A stretch of 64,000 bases of DNA from an uncultured bacterium (GTDB lineage Bacteria > Cyanobacteriota > Vampirovibrionia > Gastranaerophilales > Gastranaerophilaceae): contig CADAYE010000001.1 in NCBI GenBank assembly GCA_902792085.1, positions 124,001 to 188,000 on the forward strand, in the 5' to 3' direction. The stretch's first letter is position 1, and each line of letters opens with the position of its first letter. The notes beneath the pieces were generated by a model that did no database searches, was not told the origin of the DNA, and saw only the letters and a list, made by a program, of their open reading frames with translations. Below are positions 1,285 to 57,764 of this stretch, in pieces. The position numbers and the translations under genes are program-made.

Positions 1285-4200
1285 ATGTTACAGGAAGCAA
1301 CAAAAGCACTAAATTCAGCATTTAATAACAGTTTTATTAAGAAAATCAGTCAATATCTTCACGATTGTGTGCGTGAGGAGGTTAAAAGTTCAACTTTCCG
1401 AAACCTCAAAGGTGATAAAGATAACAAGTGGATTTTCTTAAAAGAAAAAGAAACTTTACTTACAAACGGTCTTGAATATTTAAAACTTGACGGGGCAAAC
1501 CCGAATTTGACCGAACTTATGATTCAGAGTGAAAATAATTCAAGAGATAAATACCTCATTTACGGTTATATGTTTTTGGTTGGCAGAAACGGAAAATCTA
1601 AGCGTCGTAATGAGTTTTTGACCCCGCTTTTGTATGTTCCGTGCAAATTGGAGCGAAACGGCGTAAATATAAATTGTATTCGTCAGGAAGATATTTTGTC
1701 TTTAAATACCGGCGCTTTGGCATCTTTGATGAAAAAAAGTGATGATGACGATGAAGTGGATTCTTTTTTGGAAGGTATTTTGGATGTTGTTCCTGATTTA
1801 CCTATTACAAAAGAAAAAATGGATATTTTCCTGACCACATTAAAATCACTTATTCCTGATGTTGAGATTGCTCTTGATAATAGCGAAGATGCAGATGAAG
1901 ATAATGTTTCAAGAGATGAAACACCTGATTATTCAAATGTTGAAATAAACGGTGATAATTTAGACGAAATAATTGAAGATGATATTCAACAGCAAAAACA
2001 AAAATATGAGGGGGATCTCAAAAAACTTTGTGTAACTTATCAAAGCGCAATTATTTTGACAAAACGCCCGACAGTTACGGCAGGTGTTTTGCACGAACTT
2101 TTGCAAATCGCAGAAAAACCAAGCGGAGTTTATCGTGAAACTACTTTATCAGTTATAAATGATGAATATAATCAGGCGGTTGAAAGAAACACAGTTAAAG
2201 ATGACAATACTCCTTTCTATCCGATTACTCCATTGTCTTTGAGTGATTCGCAGGAAAGAGTAATTAAAAATATTGAAAACAATAAATTTATTGCGGTTCA
2301 AGGACCTCCGGGAACAGGAAAATCTCAGACTATTGTAAACCTTGCTGCACACCTGATAGCAAACGGAAAAACAGTTTTAATTGCTTCCCGTATGGATAAG
2401 GCTGTGGATGTTGTTGCTGACCGCTTAAATGGTCTTGGGGCTCCGTATCTTGCGTTGAGGGCTGGAAGATTAAATTACCAAAGACAATTAAGTAATCAAC
2501 TCAAAGATTTGACTAATAATAAAATTAATCTTGATGATGATGTAGAAGATTATATTTTTGCAGATGTTGATGATATGAAAAAACATCTCGATATTATCCG
2601 TGAAACCGAACAAAAATGTGAAAATATTATAAAACTTGAGAAAAAATGGCACGATTTGAGAGATGAAATTAAAGAAAACTCTATGGCTGTCGGCGATATG
2701 CAGTATATTAAACGACCGCTTAAAAAATCCGAAATTGATAATATAAATGATGTTATCAAAACTTTGACGGAAAATATGGAAAAAGCAGGATTTTTTGCAG
2801 GTTTAAAAAATATGTCAAGTTTAAGACAACTCAAAAAAATTCTCGACTTAAAAGATTTTGAGGTTGAAAGTGAAAATTTAGATCGTCTGAAAGTCGAACT
2901 TGATTTTATTACTCAAAAGTGGCAGTTAAGAAAAATTGAAGCGGATATTCAAAAAATCGGTAATCTTCATGTCATGATGGAGCAAATTCGTCAACTCAAA
3001 AGAAAACAGAAATCTTTGGCAATAAATATCCTCAAAAGTTCTCGCCGTGAAGCGTTGAAATCACTTTTGCGTGATGCAAAAAAAGTTCGCAGAATAAAAA
3101 TTCATTCAAAATCACTTGTAAGTAACAGAAGAAAAAATTCTGAAAATATACTTGAAACAGAAGATTTCAAACCGTTATTAGAGGCATTCCCGTGCTGGTG
3201 TGTTACTACTTATGCGGTATCTGACAGTTTGCCTTTAAAACCCGGAATGTTTGATGTTGCAATTATTGATGAGGCTTCGCAGTGCGATATTGCAAGTTGT
3301 TTCCCGATTATGTACCGTGCCAAAAAATCGGTTATCGTAGGAGATGATAAACAATTACCGCACCTGTCTTTCCTTGAAAAAGCCAAAGAACAATCATTTT
3401 TAAGTCAATACGGAATCCCTGACAAGTATCAATTGATGTGGAGATTCAGAACAAATTCCATGTTTGATTTGGCAGATTACTATTCAATGAATTCTGTTAT
3501 GCTTGATGAGCATTTTAGAAGCCTTCCGCCTATAATCAATTTTTCTAACCGTGAATTTTATTCTGACAGAATAAGAGTTATGCGCAAGGACAAACTTGAT
3601 GAAAAAGTTTTGGATTTGGTCAAAGTTCAAGACGGAAAAGTTGATTCTGATGCAACAAGAAACCTGCCTGAAGTTGAAGAACTTGTCAAAGTTTTGCATG
3701 AAATTATTGTGGAAGACGAAAAAAATAACCCTGATAATCCGACAACCATCGGGATAATTTCACCTTTTAGAGCGCAGGTTGAACAACTGAAAATTTCTGT
3801 ACCAAAAGTTTTGTCTGATTACATGATTAAAAAACACCAAATTGAAATTGGTACGGCGCATACCTTTCAGGGTGATGAAAGAGATATAATGCTTATTTCA
3901 TGGGGCTTTGCAAACAATTCTCATCCGCAGAGCATTACATTTATTCAGAAACCTAATTTGTTTAATGTTGCGATTACAAGAGCGAAAAATAAATGTATAA
4001 ACTTTGTTTCTCACGATATTGAAACAATGTCAGAAGGGCATTTCAGAAATTATATTTCTTATATCAAAGAGTATTTGGAGCGCAAACGTGCGCTTGCAAA
4101 TGACGAAATAGATGCAAATATTTATAAAAACTCATTTGAGCGTGAAGTTGCCGATGAAATTCGTAAACTTGACCATCATGTACTCGCAGGGGTAGATATT

Positions 4201-4404
4201 GCAGGTTTGAGTGCGGATTTGGTTGTAGATGACAAGTTTATACTTGAAATTGACGGCGTTGAGGACAAGCAAAAGTCTAATATTTCAAATATGAAAAAGC
4301 AATCTATACTTGAGCGAAGCGGATATAAAGTTAAACGCATAACCTTCAGAGAATGGCAATATTCACCAAAGGCTTGTTTAGACAGAGTTTTGACACTTGA
4401 ATAA
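1285..4404 (+). CDS. SF1 (Upf1/Dna2-like) helicase fused to a C-terminal PD-(D/E)XK-type nuclease domain
   Basis: 1039 residues. Walker A GPPGTGKS lies at residues 340-347, after an unfamiliar N-terminal region with an acidic stretch. The helicase core continues with Walker B (IIDEASQ, Asp662-Glu663), then GDDKQLPHLSF, LDEHFRS, and motifs V/VI (GTAHTFQGDERD, FNVAITRAKN), as in AAA_11/AAA_12 helicases. A charged, probably coiled-coil insert fills residues ~430-620. The last ~100 residues (FEREVADEIRKL, ADLVVDDKFILEIDG, then a Vsr-like end) match DUF559/MTES_1575-type endonuclease folds. SD AAAAGGGG sits 7-8 nt before ATG. It stands alone in its transcription unit. Such fusions occur in DNA repair and in anti-phage or restriction-like systems; the sequence does not decide which. 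Confidence 0.85.
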   Translation: MLQEATKALNSAFNNSFIKKISQYLHDCVREEVKSSTFRNLKGDKDNKWIFLKEKETLLTNGLEYLKLDGANPNLTELMIQSENNSRDKYLIYGYMFLVGRNGKSKRRNEFLTPLLYVPCKLERNGVNINCIRQEDILSLNTGALASLMKKSDDDDEVDSFLEGILDVVPDLPITKEKMDIFLTTLKSLIPDVEIALDNSEDADEDNVSRDETPDYSNVEINGDNLDEIIEDDIQQQKQKYEGDLKKLCVTYQSAIILTKRPTVTAGVLHELLQIAEKPSGVYRETTLSVINDEYNQAVERNTVKDDNTPFYPITPLSLSDSQERVIKNIENNKFIAVQGPPGTGKSQTIVNLAAHLIANGKTVLIASRMDKAVDVVADRLNGLGAPYLALRAGRLNYQRQLSNQLKDLTNNKINLDDDVEDYIFADVDDMKKHLDIIRETEQKCENIIKLEKKWHDLRDEIKENSMAVGDMQYIKRPLKKSEIDNINDVIKTLTENMEKAGFFAGLKNMSSLRQLKKILDLKDFEVESENLDRLKVELDFITQKWQLRKIEADIQKIGNLHVMMEQIRQLKRKQKSLAINILKSSRREALKSLLRDAKKVRRIKIHSKSLVSNRRKNSENILETEDFKPLLEAFPCWCVTTYAVSDSLPLKPGMFDVAIIDEASQCDIASCFPIMYRAKKSVIVGDDKQLPHLSFLEKAKEQSFLSQYGIPDKYQLMWRFRTNSMFDLADYYSMNSVMLDEHFRSLPPIINFSNREFYSDRIRVMRKDKLDEKVLDLVKVQDGKVDSDATRNLPEVEELVKVLHEIIVEDEKNNPDNPTTIGIISPFRAQVEQLKISVPKVLSDYMIKKHQIEIGTAHTFQGDERDIMLISWGFANNSHPQSITFIQKPNLFNVAITRAKNKCINFVSHDIETMSEGHFRNYISYIKEYLERKRALANDEIDANIYKNSFEREVADEIRKLDHHVLAGVDIAGLSADLVVDDKFILEIDGVEDKQKSNISNMKKQSILERSGYKVKRITFREWQYSPKACLDRVLTLE

Positions 4405-10937: not shown

Positions 10938-11573
10938 TTATACCCCTTCTTCTAACTTTTCTATAATACTACTAAAAGTTTCAAAATAGTGATGCTTTAT
11001 TACATTTTTTTCACAATATTTATGTAAATTTTTTGTTGCAAAGAGAACATCTGCTTTGCTTGCAATACACAAATCGCTTGTTCCGTCTCCTATGTAACAG
11101 AATTTATTTTCTTTAACTTTGTCACATTTGCACATTCCTGCTTTTTTGTCGCAGTTTGGGTTGTGATACGGAAATTCTATTTTGAATTTGTTGTTTTCAT
11201 AAACCAAATGGTTTGCAAAAACAGGAATATCTTTGAGGTTTAACCGTTCAAGAGTTTTGTAAATAAACAGGTCAAACCCGTCACTCAAAACAGTAAATTT
11301 TATATTTTTTTCTTTTATGTATTTAATAAAATCCAAAAAAGTTTGGTCAATTTCAATATTTTCAATGTAATCGTTGAGTTGTTTCGGGGTAATTTCAGGC
11401 AAAAGTCCAACCTGAATGATTGCGTTTTCCATAGACGAAATTTTCCCATCAATCCAAAGTTTTTCGGATTCAAGCCATTTGTCGCCGGTGTAGAGTTCAA
11501 AGAATGTGTTTACCGCATCAGATTTGGTAATCGTTCCGTCAAAATCACAATATATTGCCCTGATTTCTTTCAT
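10938..11573 (-). CDS. mtnX: HAD-IB phosphatase, MtnX/phosphoserine-phosphatase-like
   Basis: 211 residues. HAD motif I YCDFDGTITKSDAV, motif II VLSDGFD, a basic patch and motif IV YIGDGTSDLCIASKAD. A Cys-rich insert (NPNCDKKAGMCKCDK) sits in the middle. This pattern is that of MtnX-type 2-hydroxy-3-keto-5-methylthiopentenyl-1-P phosphatases of methionine salvage; a phosphoserine phosphatase-like role cannot be excluded. No SD; a -10 box (TATAAT on the minus strand, 11580-11585) ends 6 nt before ATG, so the mRNA is likely leaderless. First gene of a three-gene operon. Confidence 0.75.
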   Translation of the reverse strand: MKEIRAIYCDFDGTITKSDAVNTFFELYTGDKWLESEKLWIDGKISSMENAIIQVGLLPEITPKQLNDYIENIEIDQTFLDFIKYIKEKNIKFTVLSDGFDLFIYKTLERLNLKDIPVFANHLVYENNKFKIEFPYHNPNCDKKAGMCKCDKVKENKFCYIGDGTSDLCIASKADVLFATKNLHKYCEKNVIKHHYFETFSSIIEKLEEGV

Positions 11574-11579
11574 GATTAG

Positions 11580-11585
11580 ATTATA
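11580..11585 (-). promoter_or_regulatory. -10 box of a leaderless promoter
   Basis: TATAAT on the minus strand ends 6 nt before the ATG of the HAD phosphatase gene, which has no SD. Transcription would start at or within 1-2 nt of the ATG. The -35 is not convincing. Confidence 0.5.
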
Positions 11586-11692
11586 GTATAAAAATTAATT
11601 TCTATCTTTTAAAAGAAAAATTTTTGCTATTGCATATAAGTTATACTCTCTTTACTTTTGTATTGAATTTACCAAAATGGTAATATAAAAAA

Positions 11693-11892
11693 GGTAACTA
11701 TATAGGAGTTACCACAAAAATAGGTTAAAATCAGCACCCACCCCAACCCTCCCTCGTGAGGGAGGGAGAAATTTCAAATTGAACGAGAAATTTCAAATTG
11801 AACAGAATGTGAAATTTAGAAATTTGGATGGGTGATTCCCCGTTAGGGATAATAGTTTTGCCAAAATTTTGTGGTAAATAATATATAATTGC
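11693..11892. mobile_element. ~200-bp dispersed repeat, copy 1
   Basis: Nearly the same sequence as 32329-32512. It starts with GGTAACT-7 nt-AGTTACC, contains the palindrome CCCTCCCTC-gt-GAGGGAGGG (11747-11766) and an AT-rich end with 'atatataattgc'. This copy has an extra ~19-bp internal tandem unit. There is no coding capacity, as expected of a MITE or REP-type element. It lies in the gap before the 12033 gene. Confidence 0.75.
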
Positions 11893-11997
11893 CATAAAAA
11901 ATATTATCGGTATATAAATATAATAAATGTTGCTCCACAGGGTCGTAATAACATGTTACTGTAAGATAGTATATAATTACCAAAAATCCTTAAAGAT

Positions 11998-12026
11998 TTG
12001 CTAATTTAAATCAAAAAAGTTATTAT
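11998..12026 (+). promoter_or_regulatory. Promoter of 12033 gene, leaderless type
   Basis: TTGCTA (11998-12003), a 17-nt spacer, TATTAT (12021-12026), then 6 nt to the ATG at 12033; no SD. This is the same 6-nt geometry as at 11580, 13407 and 57543. Confidence 0.6.
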
Positions 12027-12032
12027 ATAAAA

Positions 12033-12851
12033 ATGGATGATGAGATAGATAACAGGACTTTTCGCGATTTCACCGAAGCGGAAATAGACTCAAAACTTCA
12101 GGCTGATGTTGAATTGCATAACAAAAAGGTGAAACGCAATATTATAATTGCGGTAATTTTATTGTTATTTTTGTTTAGGGGAACTGTTATTTATTGGGCA
12201 AAGTTTGGGATAGCGATTCCAACTCGTTATACCAAAGAGTATATTGATGTTACAAAAGAGCCTGTTCAGACGAATTATACAGAGGCTGAAAAGAAGAAGA
12301 AAAAATTTGTTTATCATTCTTTGATAAACAAAGGAACAATGGAGATAACCCCTCAGGCGCATTATGTAATTTCAGGCAAAGTTATTGCTTATAACCATGA
12401 TTTTCTTTTTATTTCAAAGTTTTTTGACAGTGCTGCTTTATATGATTTGGGAACAGCGTGGGGCAAACTTGCAGACAAAAAACTTTTGAAAAAGTATGTA
12501 AAAGTTTACAGCGAAAAAGTTCAATTGACCGGTGCAAGACGGCTGAATTGGAGTTGGCACAGTGATATTCCGTATTCGGAAGAATATATAACCTCACATC
12601 TTTCTCACACTCATATAATTCCTGCAAACCGTAATATAATGGCTGCAATGTTAAAACTTCGTGATTATCAGGATTTCAAACTTGAGGGTGAACTTGTAGA
12701 TATGACTGCAAAAGATACACGAGAGAATAAGATTTATATGTATAAAACAAGTCTTTCCCGAACTGATACGGACAGAACAAGCAGAGGTTTTGGCGCCTGT
12801 GAAACAATGTATGTAACAAAAGTTCAAATTGGTAATAAGATTTATGAATAA
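12033..12851 (+). CDS. Single-pass membrane protein of unknown function
   Basis: 272 residues. A charged cytoplasmic N-terminus (~36 residues) precedes a membrane helix (NIIIAVILLLFLFRGTVI, ~residues 36-53). The outer part has motifs ISGKVIAYN, NWSWHSDIP, SHLSHTHIIP, ELVDM and SRTDTDRTSRGFGACE. The SxxRxDxxxGxGACE end is a pattern I recall in several bacterial hypothetical envelope proteins, but no activity is known to me. It has its own promoter just upstream and no SD, and is followed by a long intergenic region with tRNA-Ser. Confidence 0.72.
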   Translation: MDDEIDNRTFRDFTEAEIDSKLQADVELHNKKVKRNIIIAVILLLFLFRGTVIYWAKFGIAIPTRYTKEYIDVTKEPVQTNYTEAEKKKKKFVYHSLINKGTMEITPQAHYVISGKVIAYNHDFLFISKFFDSAALYDLGTAWGKLADKKLLKKYVKVYSEKVQLTGARRLNWSWHSDIPYSEEYITSHLSHTHIIPANRNIMAAMLKLRDYQDFKLEGELVDMTAKDTRENKIYMYKTSLSRTDTDRTSRGFGACETMYVTKVQIGNKIYE

Positions 12852-12944
12852 ATTTTGCTTAAAATTTGAGAAATTGTATTTTGTATGTTCAATTTTCTAA
12901 TAGCAATTTGTTGGGTTCTTTTAAATTCACTAAATTTTCGCAAA

Positions 12945-12980
12945 ATAGAAAGCAGATAGATAAAACTATCTGCTTTCTAT
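12945..12980. terminator. Perfect 15-bp hairpin at the outer end of the tRNA-Ser module
   Basis: ATAGAAAGCAGATAG, six-nt loop, CTATCTGCTTTCTAT. On the minus strand it follows the displaced tRNA-Ser end and is followed by 'tattttg', so it probably is the terminator that once ended tRNA-Ser. Confidence 0.6.
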
Positions 12981-12981
12981 C

Positions 12982-13171
12982 AGGAGGAGGTGGGATTCTG
13001 TCACGGCGCTCGCCTTCGATGTGACTTCGCGTCTTGCTTTTAGTTGCAAGTGTGCAACAAGCAAGACGGCTCCGCACTTGGCTCGCTTGTTCAACCCACA
13101 AAACAGGGGGGGGCTCATCCTCACCTCACTCATTGCAATAAAAAATCACCCTTTCGGGTGGTTTTAAATGG
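12982..13171 (-). mobile_element. 190-bp structured module bounded by tRNA-Ser 3' ends
   Basis: The 17-bp AGGAGGAGGTGGGATTC at 12982-12998 repeats exactly the tRNA-Ser stretch from position 73 to the T-loop (13172-13188). The intervening DNA is GC-rich for this genome. It holds a long hairpin at 13030-13068 (CGTCTTGCTT... AAGCAAGACG with an inner GTTGCA/TGCAAC stem), a partial T-arm copy (TCAACCCA, 13091-13098) and the current tRNA-Ser terminator. Same build as the two modules beside tRNA-Glu, so it is probably a miniature integrated element. Confidence 0.55.
13139..13165 (-). terminator. Rho-independent terminator of tRNA-Ser
   Basis: On the minus strand: CACCC-gaaa-GGGTG followed by ATTTTTT, starting just after the tRNA-Ser 3' end. 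Confidence 0.65.
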
Positions 13172-13258
13172 AGGAGGAGGTGGGATTCGAACCCACGGAA
13201 CGCTTGCACGTTCGACAGTTTTCAAGACTGCTCCGATCAACCGCTCTGGCACTCCTCC
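13172..13258 (-). tRNA. tRNA-Ser(UGA)
   Basis: Minus-strand cloverleaf: acceptor GGAGGAG/CTCCTCC, anticodon stem-loop CAGTC-TTGAAAA-CTG with anticodon TGA, a long variable arm (GAACGTGCAAGCGTTC) typical of Ser, and T-arm GTGGG-TTCGAAT-CCCAC. CCA is not encoded. The base at position 73 reads U, unusual for bacterial tRNA-Ser (G73 expected). A copy of positions ~57-73 lies 190 bp away at 12982. Confidence 0.93.
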
Positions 13259-13384
13259 AAAACTCGTTGTTTCGTGTAGTTCTATTCTATATTATAAATA
13301 TTCCTTGTCAAGTTATTAAAACTAAAAGAAATTTTATGTTTTTAAAATTTTTCTATGATTAATAAATAAATACTTGTAACAATT

Positions 13385-13412
13385 TTGCGATAAAAATGTT
13401 TTAGGCTAAAAT
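13385..13412 (+). promoter_or_regulatory. Promoter of DUF4127 gene, leaderless type
   Basis: TTGCGA (13385-13390), 16-nt spacer, TAAAAT (13407-13412), then 6 nt to ATG at 13419, and no SD. Confidence 0.6.
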
Positions 13413-13418
13413 CGTATC

Positions 13419-14753
13419 ATGAAGATTGCGTTTTTACCGATAGATAACAGACCTGTTTGTTATACAATGCCTGAAATAATTTCAGGCATTGATGATTGCG
13501 TGGAATTTTCTATTCCGCCAAGAAATTTACTTGGAGATTTGACAAAAACGGCTGATATTGACGGTATTTTTAAATGGCTCGAAAATCTATCCGAACAAGA
13601 TGTTATTATAATGTCGCTTGATACTTTGATTTATGGCGGACTTATACCCTCACGCAGAGGGAAAGAAACCTTGGGGGAATTAAAATTACGGCTTGAAAAA
13701 CTTAAAAAACTCCTACTGTCAAAAGGTGCAAAAATTTATGCTTTCTCAAGCATAATGAGAATTTCAAATAATAATTATAATGAGGAAGAAAAAGAATACT
13801 GGGGGCAATACGGAAAGAAAATTTTTGAATATTCTTTTAATTTGCACAAAAACGGTTTTGCTCAGACTGATGTACCGTCTGAAATTATAAAGGATTACTT
13901 TGAAACAAGAAAGCGTAATTTTGAGGTAAACAAAATTTATCTTGACTGGCAAAAAGAGGGAGTTTTTGAATTTTTGGTATTTTCAAAAGATGATTGCGCA
14001 CAATTTGGGCTGAATGTGAAAGAAGCACAGGAACTTGAAAATTTAGGCGGATTTACCAAAACAGGCGCAGATGAAATTCCTTTAAGTCTTTTATCAAGAG
14101 CGCTAAATAAAAAACTCAAAATTTTTCCTGTGTTTTTAGAACCTGAATATAAAAATTTAATTTCAAATTACGAAGATGTTTCGGTTGAAAATTCGGTCAA
14201 AGGTCAGATTGAACTTGCCGGATGCGAAGTTTGTGCAGATGAAGATAATGCGGATTTGATATTGTATATCAATAATTTTATAAAGCATCAGGGCGAAATT
14301 GTTATGAAAGTCGATACAAAAAGTTTTGACAGAGAATTTAAAACTCCTGAGAAACCATATATGATTGCAGATGTACGATTTGCAAACGGCAGTGACAACG
14401 GATTTATTCAGGCATTGTTTAAAAATAAGATTTCAGATAAATATTTTTACGGTTACAGTGCCTGGAATACTACGGCAAATACTTTGGGGAGTTTAATTTG
14501 CGGTGCAAAGTTTAAATACTTCGCTCAAAAATATAACAGAGCAAATTTTGAAAAACTACAGATAACAAGATTTGCAGATGATTGGGCATATCAGGCAAAT
14601 GTTCGTCAAATGCTGAAAAAAACAGATGAAAATGAACTGAAAATTTTGATGAAAGAATTTGAAACCGTATTAGGTAATGTATTTAATTCAAAGATTGATT
14701 TAAAATATTCATATCCATGGCACAGATTATTTGAGGTAGAAATTTGGATTTAA
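13419..14753 (+). CDS. DUF4127 family protein
   Basis: 444 residues. The N-terminus (KIAFLPIDNRPVCYTMPE) and MSLDTLIYGGLIPSRRG are signatures of DUF4127, a conserved cytoplasmic family without a described function. YSAWNTTANTLG and the end FADDWAYQANVRQ also fit it. The N-terminal half looks like a Rossmann-type fold. No signal peptide. Family length is usually ~500, so this copy is a little short. A promoter lies 6 nt before the start. Overlaps the following transporter gene by 10 nt. Confidence 0.82.
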   Translation: MKIAFLPIDNRPVCYTMPEIISGIDDCVEFSIPPRNLLGDLTKTADIDGIFKWLENLSEQDVIIMSLDTLIYGGLIPSRRGKETLGELKLRLEKLKKLLLSKGAKIYAFSSIMRISNNNYNEEEKEYWGQYGKKIFEYSFNLHKNGFAQTDVPSEIIKDYFETRKRNFEVNKIYLDWQKEGVFEFLVFSKDDCAQFGLNVKEAQELENLGGFTKTGADEIPLSLLSRALNKKLKIFPVFLEPEYKNLISNYEDVSVENSVKGQIELAGCEVCADEDNADLILYINNFIKHQGEIVMKVDTKSFDREFKTPEKPYMIADVRFANGSDNGFIQALFKNKISDKYFYGYSAWNTTANTLGSLICGAKFKYFAQKYNRANFEKLQITRFADDWAYQANVRQMLKKTDENELKILMKEFETVLGNVFNSKIDLKYSYPWHRLFEVEIWI

Positions 14754-57519: not shown

Positions 57520-57548
57520 TTGTTATTTTTTTGTCAATAGTTAATAAT
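57520..57548 (+). promoter_or_regulatory. Promoter of the XRE gene, leaderless type
   Basis: TTGTTA (57520-57525), 17-nt spacer, AATAAT (57543-57548), then 6 nt to ATG 57555; no SD. Confidence 0.5.
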
Positions 57549-57554
57549 CAAAAT

Positions 57555-57764
57555 ATGAACACAAGAGCATTAGGTTTAAATATTAAAGCAGAAAGAAACA
57601 GAAAAGAACTTTCTCAGGAAAGACTCGGAGAATTGGTAAATCTGAGTACAAATTCTATAAGTTTAATTGAAAAAGGCAAGCAAATTCCTAACGCAATAAA
57701 CTTATATTTAATTGCCAAAGTTCTTGAAGTAGATATAAATGAATTATTTAAAGGAATTGAATAA
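57555..57764 (+). CDS. XRE-family HTH regulator
   Basis: 69 residues: LGLNIKAERNRKELSQERLGELVNLSTNSISLIEKGKQ is a classic Cro/C1 HTH, with only a short C-terminal helix (DINELFKG). Stop TAA overlaps the ATG of the protease gene (TAATG), so the two form one operon. A lone repressor of this kind often controls its own operon. Start ATG 57555 has no SD; a promoter sits 6 nt upstream. Confidence 0.85.
   Translation: MNTRALGLNIKAERNRKELSQERLGELVNLSTNSISLIEKGKQIPNAINLYLIAKVLEVDINELFKGIE

Follow-up and report, generated by a model that had tools for sequence, protein, structure and literature searches.

The locus

The present study deals with a group of putatively leaderless genes in an uncultured bacterium of the Gastranaerophilaceae (Cyanobacteriota; Vampirovibrionia; Gastranaerophilales), a family of the Ca. 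Melainabacteria, and starts from a stretch of 64,000 nucleotides, referred to as the window (contig CADAYE010000001.1 of assembly GCA_902792085.1, positions 124,001 to 188,000). Four genes of the window, with start codons at 11573 on the minus strand and at 12033, 13419 and 57555 on the plus strand, carry a -10-like hexamer that ends 6 nt before the ATG, and none of the four has a Shine-Dalgarno (SD) core, which was defined as AGGA, GGAG, GAGG or AAGG located 3-13 nt before the start. An original prediction, made from the window alone, had proposed that these genes belong to a regular leaderless class, and direct reading agrees with its description of the four sites as well as with the -35 hexamers and spacings given for the three genes on the plus strand (Table 1). 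Two of its generalizations had to be narrowed. The pattern TANNNT holds at three of the genes, whereas AATAAT before 57555 shares five of six letters with TATAAT and does not conform to TANNNT; similarly, the remark that most other genes have clear SDs was too strong, as a core occurs in 32 of the 59 genes called in the window, a little over half. Taken singly, 57555 may be a chance match.

Table 1. Genes and promoter elements discussed in the text (window positions unless a locus and contig are given).
Feature	Position	Strand	Remarks
MtnX-like HAD-IB phosphatase gene	10938..11573	-	ATG at 11573; predicted leaderless
-10 TATAAT	11580..11585	-	6 nt before ATG at 11573; sequence read directly
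-35-like TTGCTA	11998..12003	+	17 nt before -10; sequence read directly
-10 TATTAT	12021..12026	+	6 nt before ATG at 12033; sequence read directly
272-aa protein gene	12033..12851	+	predicted leaderless
-35-like TTGCGA	13385..13390	+	16 nt before -10; sequence read directly
-10 TAAAAT	13407..13412	+	6 nt before ATG at 13419; sequence read directly
DUF4127 gene	13419..14753	+	PF13552, E 7e-107; predicted leaderless
-35-like TTGTTA	57520..57525	+	17 nt before -10; sequence read directly
-10-like AATAAT	57543..57548	+	6 nt before ATG at 57555; weakest of the four
HTH_3 (Xre-type) regulator gene, 69 aa	57555..57764	+	PF01381, E 5e-13, residues 10-64; predicted leaderless
dnaG	L002:12689-14224 (G000:C1:32689-34224)		-10 at 6 nt before ATG
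AmmeMemoRadiSam intergenic gap	L005:9145-9165 (G000:C1:89145-89165)		outside the window; between divergent genes, 21 nt

A -10 peak confined to genes without an SD core

The source assembly comprises 1.92 Mb in 39 contigs with a GC content of 33%, and 453 kb of it (24% of the genome), namely the window and 20 further stretches, served as the own-genome sample. Genes were called with a home-made program based on coding hexamers and the type of start codon, in which upstream signals were not used. An SD core was found before 231 of the 416 called genes (55.5%, compared to 7% when the same test was shifted further upstream), leaving 185 non-SD genes. A 16S rRNA gene, which would carry the anti-SD, was not found in the assembly. 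Two tests were used for the -10, the strict one asking for a hexamer with at least five of the six letters of TATAAT exactly 6 nt before the start, and the second one, which is better suited to GC-rich genomes, for TANNNT at 6 nt. As background, the counts at offsets 2-4 and 8-11 (seven flanking offsets) were averaged.

The strict hexamer occurs at 6 nt before 32 of the 185 non-SD genes compared to a flank mean of 6.1 (p=8e-11), and before none of the 231 SD genes. With TANNNT, the corresponding figures are 37 of 185 (flank mean 8.9) and 1 of 231. Hence, the comparison of TANNNT-6-ATG with SD-led genes that had been proposed for the whole genome, carried out here on the sampled part, places the peak exclusively in the non-SD genes. 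The peak is essentially a single position: among 119 non-SD genes that are first in their operon, the -10 is located at 6 nt in 26, at 5 nt in three and at 7 nt in seven. Relative to all genes, the excess of about 26 amounts to 6.2% with the strict test and to 6.8% with TANNNT, which puts the class at about 6-7% of the sampled genes or, if the sample is representative, at roughly 110 genes genome-wide. In the 50-kb plasmid sequence of Deinococcus deserti used as a positive control, TANNNT was found at 6 nt before 3 of 39 annotated starts and before 0-1 at other offsets, a result in the expected direction from a sample that is too small. The start codons of 67 candidates pooled from this genome, its genus and its order are ATG in 65 cases and TTG in two. 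A search for a bias towards A downstream of the start was negative (0.423 vs 0.419), and gene lengths differ little (medians 272, 251 and 251).

Hexamers of this kind are common in AT-rich DNA, and in a genome with 33% GC a peak might arise by chance. Since the flanking offsets yield 6 per 185 genes, roughly a fifth of the 32 may indeed be chance matches. As an account of the class, however, chance is of practically negligible probability and was rejected: 2000 trials with base-shuffled upstream DNA gave a mean of 5.7 and a maximum of 14 against the 32 observed, 500 trials with a first-order Markov model a mean of 4.7 and a maximum of 12, and such a hexamer precedes only 1.7% of 2753 internal in-frame ATGs by 6 nt. 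Neither the flanking offsets nor the SD genes reproduce the peak, and the placement is conserved across species (see below).

A second possibility is that the starts have been called wrongly, the true in-frame start lying elsewhere and being led by an SD. In a set of 74 candidates (the pooled set from genome, genus and order together with one genome of the wider class, ATG starts only), an SD-led in-frame start within 30 codons was found downstream in five and upstream in one. The pattern which would speak against a leaderless start is thus rare. Of the four genes of the window, 57555 has an SD-led in-frame start at codon 26, which would cut into the helix-turn-helix domain. The same situation is commoner in the other non-SD genes (46 of 373 downstream, 42 of 373 upstream). 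Furthermore, the peak persists when only unambiguous starts are counted (22 of 78 non-SD genes, 0 of 152 SD genes), and in orthologs of 12033 the start and the -10 shift together. Wrong starts were rejected as an account of the class by the unambiguous-start and nearby-SD-start tests, and we regard them as extremely improbable.

Promoter marks outside the hexamer

Positions which had played no role in the selection of the candidates also deviate from the background composition (34% T, 16% G). In the 67 pooled candidates, T is found at -1 in 81%, G at -14 in 48% and T at -15 in 60%; T further occurs at -17 to -19 in 58-63% and at -35 and -34 in 51% and 58%, respectively. T is the usual base preceding a transcription start site. 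It occupies -1 in 58 of the 74 candidates. The proportion is lower in the sets used for comparison, with 224 of 491 for SD genes, 140 of 373 for the remaining non-SD genes, 36 of 72 where a non-SD gene carries the hexamer at a different offset (p=0.0005) and 32 of 140 for internal ATGs preceded by the hexamer. TGn precedes the -10 in 24 of the 74 candidates and in 8 of 79 hexamers at other offsets. Taken together, these marks fit a sigma-70-type promoter from which transcription would start on the A of the ATG.

It has to be considered that the AT-rich hexamer is not a promoter element at all but a translational signal, acting through binding of ribosomal protein S1 or through a lack of structure. 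Nakagawa et al. (2017, PMC5397173) name S1 binding as an alternative interpretation of the AT-rich bias that precedes non-SD genes, and S1 domains were found in this genome. However, the hexamer is fixed at one position and accompanied by TGn and a weak -35, and an exact single position would hardly be needed for S1 binding, which renders this explanation very improbable. Another alternative differs from leaderless transcription in degree only and is compatible with it, namely that in some genes transcription starts 1-5 nt before the ATG, resulting in very short leaders. A -10 at 7 nt or more in some relatives, including one at about 10 nt in a gene described below, is in favor of such leaders, but the sharp preference for 6 over 5 or 7 nt and the enrichment of T at -1 argue against them, and we consider them unlikely.

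Taxonomic range and conservation among orthologs

The strict hexamer at 6 nt recurs in relatives. Three further genomes of the genus have it before 18 of 76 non-SD genes (18 of 153 genes in total), 15 genomes from the order before 17 of 152 (17 of 298), and a genome of the class whose GC content is 45% before 10 of 133 (10 of 196). By TANNNT, the non-SD counts are 20 of 76 in the genus (flank mean 5.1), 16 of 152 in the order (5.9) and 35 of 417 in 11 pooled genomes from other orders of the class (10.9; p=1e-7), while eight genomes from other classes of the phylum gave 8 of 347 against a flank mean of 4.6, which is not significant (p=0.12). Expressed as percentage of all genes, the TANNNT excess is 6.8 in the own genome, 9.7 in the genus, 3.4 in the order, 3.9 in the other orders and 0.7 in the other classes. 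This suggests a larger leaderless set here than in the sampled genomes of other classes.

The placement is also conserved gene by gene. For the DUF4127 gene at 13419, the best 80 of 319 loci were taken and 79 used (L025 was dropped); at least four of the six TATAAT letters are present at exactly 6 nt in 69 of the 79 relatives and, as judged by eye, several of the remainder have a -10 at 5 or 7 nt. Among the matches listed, the closest relatives in named records are of rumen origin, and nearly all named relatives are designated Candidatus Gastranaerophilales, Melainabacteria, Scatousia or Cyanobacteria bacterium, with one Fusobacterium sp. CAG:439. In 39 of the relatives L021-L100, the DUF4127 gene has a divergent gene at a distance of 47-50 nt, which encodes a protein of about 223 aa; in the own genome, the upstream region holds a tRNA-Ser gene. 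A conserved block preceding the DUF4127 gene was considered as an operator and rejected, as it contains the SD core of the divergent gene in 28 of these 39 relatives. The non-SD first genes of L021-L100 display a smaller second -10-like peak at 18 nt (49 of 545, compared to 14 at 17 nt and 25 at 19 nt), which may reflect a single orthologous gene counted repeatedly.

For dnaG, the best 30 of the 56 genomes with a match, the own one included, were read, and in 30 of 30 loci five of the six TATAAT letters lie at 6 nt together with TG at -15/-14. Column identity across these loci is 98% in the -10, 84-85% on both sides of the box, 72% from -29 to -20, 51% from -35 to -30 and 58% from -50 to -36. 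Among 13 loci with at least 65% identity to the 11573 phosphatase (own included), 12 have TATAAT 6-7 nt before the ATG and one is SD-led; one of the 30 loci of this gene has no ATG within 12 codons. Of 26 loci of the 12033 gene, ten lack an ATG within 12 codons; in 12 of the remaining 16, which include the own one, a -10 is located at 6-7 nt, although the start moves by up to five codons and the -10 moves along with it. The 57555 regulator yielded 15 matches, in which orthologs are inseparable from paralogs.

The comparison was extended to all 416 own genes, which were matched to loci of the class; starts with a -10 at 5-7 nt were scored as leaderless, and pairs with more than 90% or less than 35% identity, alignments that span fewer than 60 residues or begin beyond residue 8, and loci whose upstream DNA was identical were left out. 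Leaderless starts make up 82% of 138 ortholog starts for 15 own leaderless genes, 1% of 204 for 46 SD genes and 6% of 178 for 42 other genes.

A number of observations weigh against a regular leaderless class. In the comparison just described, 110 of the 138 ortholog starts stem from the DUF4127 gene and the AmmeMemoRadiSam pair (see below), and the mean leaderless fraction per gene is 0.56 for the leaderless genes (0.03 for SD genes, 0.16 for others). Orthologs are mostly leaderless (at least 50%) for nine of the 15 own leaderless genes and fall below this value for six, four of which have a single ortholog, and mostly leaderless orthologs were also obtained for three of the 46 SD genes and six of the 42 others. 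All 30 dnaG loci, being best matches, come from one and the same genus, and of the more distant loci of the 11573 phosphatase only 1 of 17 is leaderless, the others being mostly SD-led or neither. T at -1 shows little enrichment in the wider class (12 of 35 vs 110 of 417), where some single genomes exhibit no peak (G116/G120 0 of 37, G109 1 of 45); single genomes outside the order are not judgeable because their sets hold 40-196 genes. With home-made gene calls, the Deinococcus plasmid yielded 1 of 40, a sample which is too small, and TANNNT occurs at 6 nt before 2 of 38 genes in 50 kb of Escherichia coli, a small negative control in which the strict test was positive in 0 of 8 non-SD genes.

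In spite of these points, the original prediction of a regular leaderless class in this lineage is supported, at the level of sequence and evolution, by a peak at a single position which occurs in non-SD genes only, recurs in relatives, is conserved gene by gene for the genes examined and is accompanied by promoter marks that played no role in selection, and we consider it very likely that the genes of the class are leaderless.

A divergent gene pair with a probable shared -10

Outside the window, a Memo-AMMECR1 fusion gene and the gene for the AmmeMemoRadiSam radical SAM enzyme are divergently oriented with 21 nt between them, and TATAAT can be read in both directions, 6 nt from one ATG and 7 nt from the other. 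The radical SAM enzyme occurs in 34 of 59 genomes (own included), and the locus was cut out for 30 of these 34. A close divergent pair is present in 18 of the 30 loci read (own included), with a gap of 21 nt in 17 and of 22 nt in one; 17 of the close-pair genomes belong to the same genus and one to another family of the order. Within the gap, the palindrome TATTATAATA is perfect in 17 of the 18 close-pair genomes and the 12-bp GTATTATAATAC in 14 of 18. At the other 12 loci, the gap is 49 nt in two, and in ten the Memo gene is further off or was not found in a short locus. In a further relative, L024, which counts against a strict rule, the gap measures 24 nt and the -10 lies about 10 nt from the ATG of the radical SAM gene. 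A scan of the loci collected for divergent ATGs separated by 8-60 nt with a -10 on both sides, in which E. coli and Deinococcus were left out, returned the AmmeMemoRadiSam pair at 19 places in 18 genomes (own twice) and three other pairs at 39, 45 and 57 nt. At L005:1279-1323 (G000:C1:81279-81323), a second divergent pair, both genes of which are apparently leaderless, is separated by 45 nt and encodes a CxxCxxCC-domain protein and an MlaD-domain protein.

Judging from this arrangement, it is on balance likely that in Gastranaerophilales the Memo-AMMECR1 fusion gene and its radical SAM partner, both leaderless, start back to back from one shared near-palindromic -10. The 21-22 nt between the ATGs would be accounted for by two discriminators and one -10, and by geometry each -35 would lie inside the first codons of the opposite gene. 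RNA polymerase could serve no more than one side at a time, which would tie both products together, and there would be no room for an untranslated region. Alternatively to a shared promoter, the palindrome may hold the operator of a repressor. A shared -10 would be common to this pair and to the bidirectional promoters with a symmetric -10 described in E. coli, where divergent starts are mostly 18 bp apart, with 10 and 23 bp also being common (PMC12825309); those of the AmmeMemoRadiSam pair would be about 22 apart. In contrast to the E. coli promoters, the gap consists of little more than the promoter core and both ends would be start codons, and the term 'leaderless' is absent from the main text of that study. 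The cvkR and cas12k genes of Anabaena are divergent and both leaderless, and lie 82 nt apart (PMC9938897). The AmmeMemoRadiSam pair provides a natural, conserved test object for the possible sharing of a promoter by two leaderless genes.

Genes of the class and other features of the window

Family searches covered 35 of 44 candidates and identified DnaG, LepA, TsaD, RuvC, RibD, a CCA-adding-type enzyme, FolC (first 106 residues scanned), 5-formyltetrahydrofolate cyclo-ligase, a pseudouridine synthase, an RNA methyltransferase with a TRAM domain, a MiaB/RimO-type radical SAM protein, LptF/G, MlaD and AgcS. Several of the products have RNA or DNA as their substrate. The 272-aa protein encoded at 12033 was searched against Pfam and NCBIfam with no match. 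Domains of IF3 and S1 were found in this genome, so that neither of these components of translation initiation is lacking.

Some further features of the window may be mentioned. The intergenic region 11766-11803 contains GAGAAATTTCAAATTGAAC in two exact tandem copies. An exact direct repeat of 17 nt, AGGAGGAGGTGGGATTC, is located at 12982-12998 and 13172-13188, 190 nt apart, and its second copy belongs to the 3'-terminal portion of the tRNA-Ser gene, which occupies 13169-13258 on the minus strand; the repeat might stem from an integrated element or a partial tRNA copy. The region 1285-4404 encodes a large helicase with a C-terminal MTES_1575-type nuclease domain, whose matches to the anti-phage models ProA and Hhe are far below the cut-offs.

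Discussion

In the genome studied here, about one gene in 15 seems to begin its mRNA at the start codon, with neither a leader nor a ribosome-binding site. The fixed placement of the -10 at 6 nt, the lack of an SD core, the marks at -1, -14/-15 and -35 and the conservation in relatives are seen in the sequences, and from these we infer where transcription starts, which sigma factor is used and how the ribosome enters. A housekeeping-type sigma factor would recognize the TATAAT-like -10, which is extended by TGn in about a third of the cases and accompanied by a weak TT at -35. RNA polymerase would then start on the A of the ATG, giving rise to an mRNA that begins with 5'-AUG, and, without an SD, the ribosome would bind the 5'-terminal AUG, possibly as an undissociated 70S particle by analogy with other bacteria.

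The arrangement resembles the TA-led genes of Zheng et al. (2011, PMC3160421), which lack an SD and have TANNNT or TATAAT with its first T about 12 bp ahead of the start codon. Where such genomes are low in GC, the box has an A-rich middle and may be preceded by TG. Placement of the -10, lack of an SD, A-rich middle and preceding TG are all shared with the genes described here. That survey assigned leaderless genes to 207 of 953 bacterial genomes in named groups (PMC3160421). The named groups exclude Cyanobacteria, for which 'atypical' genes are reported, Melainabacteria is absent from the text, and the category 'Other Bacteria' in its Table 2 is not broken down. In Deinococcus-Thermus, experiments have demonstrated that a -10 motif a few bp upstream of open reading frames (ORFs) drives leaderless expression (PMC12340547); there, about 30% of the ORFs are concerned, compared to about 6% here, as predicted from sequence.

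Photosynthetic cyanobacteria, which belong to the same phylum, have few mapped leaderless mRNAs, the numbers being 51 for Synechocystis 6803 (cited in PMC9938897) and 19 for Synechococcus elongatus UTEX 2973 (PMC6091082). The excess of 0.7% in the other classes of the phylum agrees with these low numbers but disagrees with the remark that Cyanobacteria reportedly have a high leaderless fraction (PMC5397173). A literature search, outside of which most subscription journals lay, found no report of leaderless genes for Melainabacteria, Gastranaerophilales or Vampirovibrio. The type of promoter and gene, and with it this uncommon mode of translation initiation, is thus known, but apparently undescribed in this lineage.

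If promoters end where genes begin, start calling that is based on the SD only can miss or shift such genes. The non-photosynthetic gut relatives of cyanobacteria would join the lineages with a regular leaderless set, which here would include the core replication gene dnaG.

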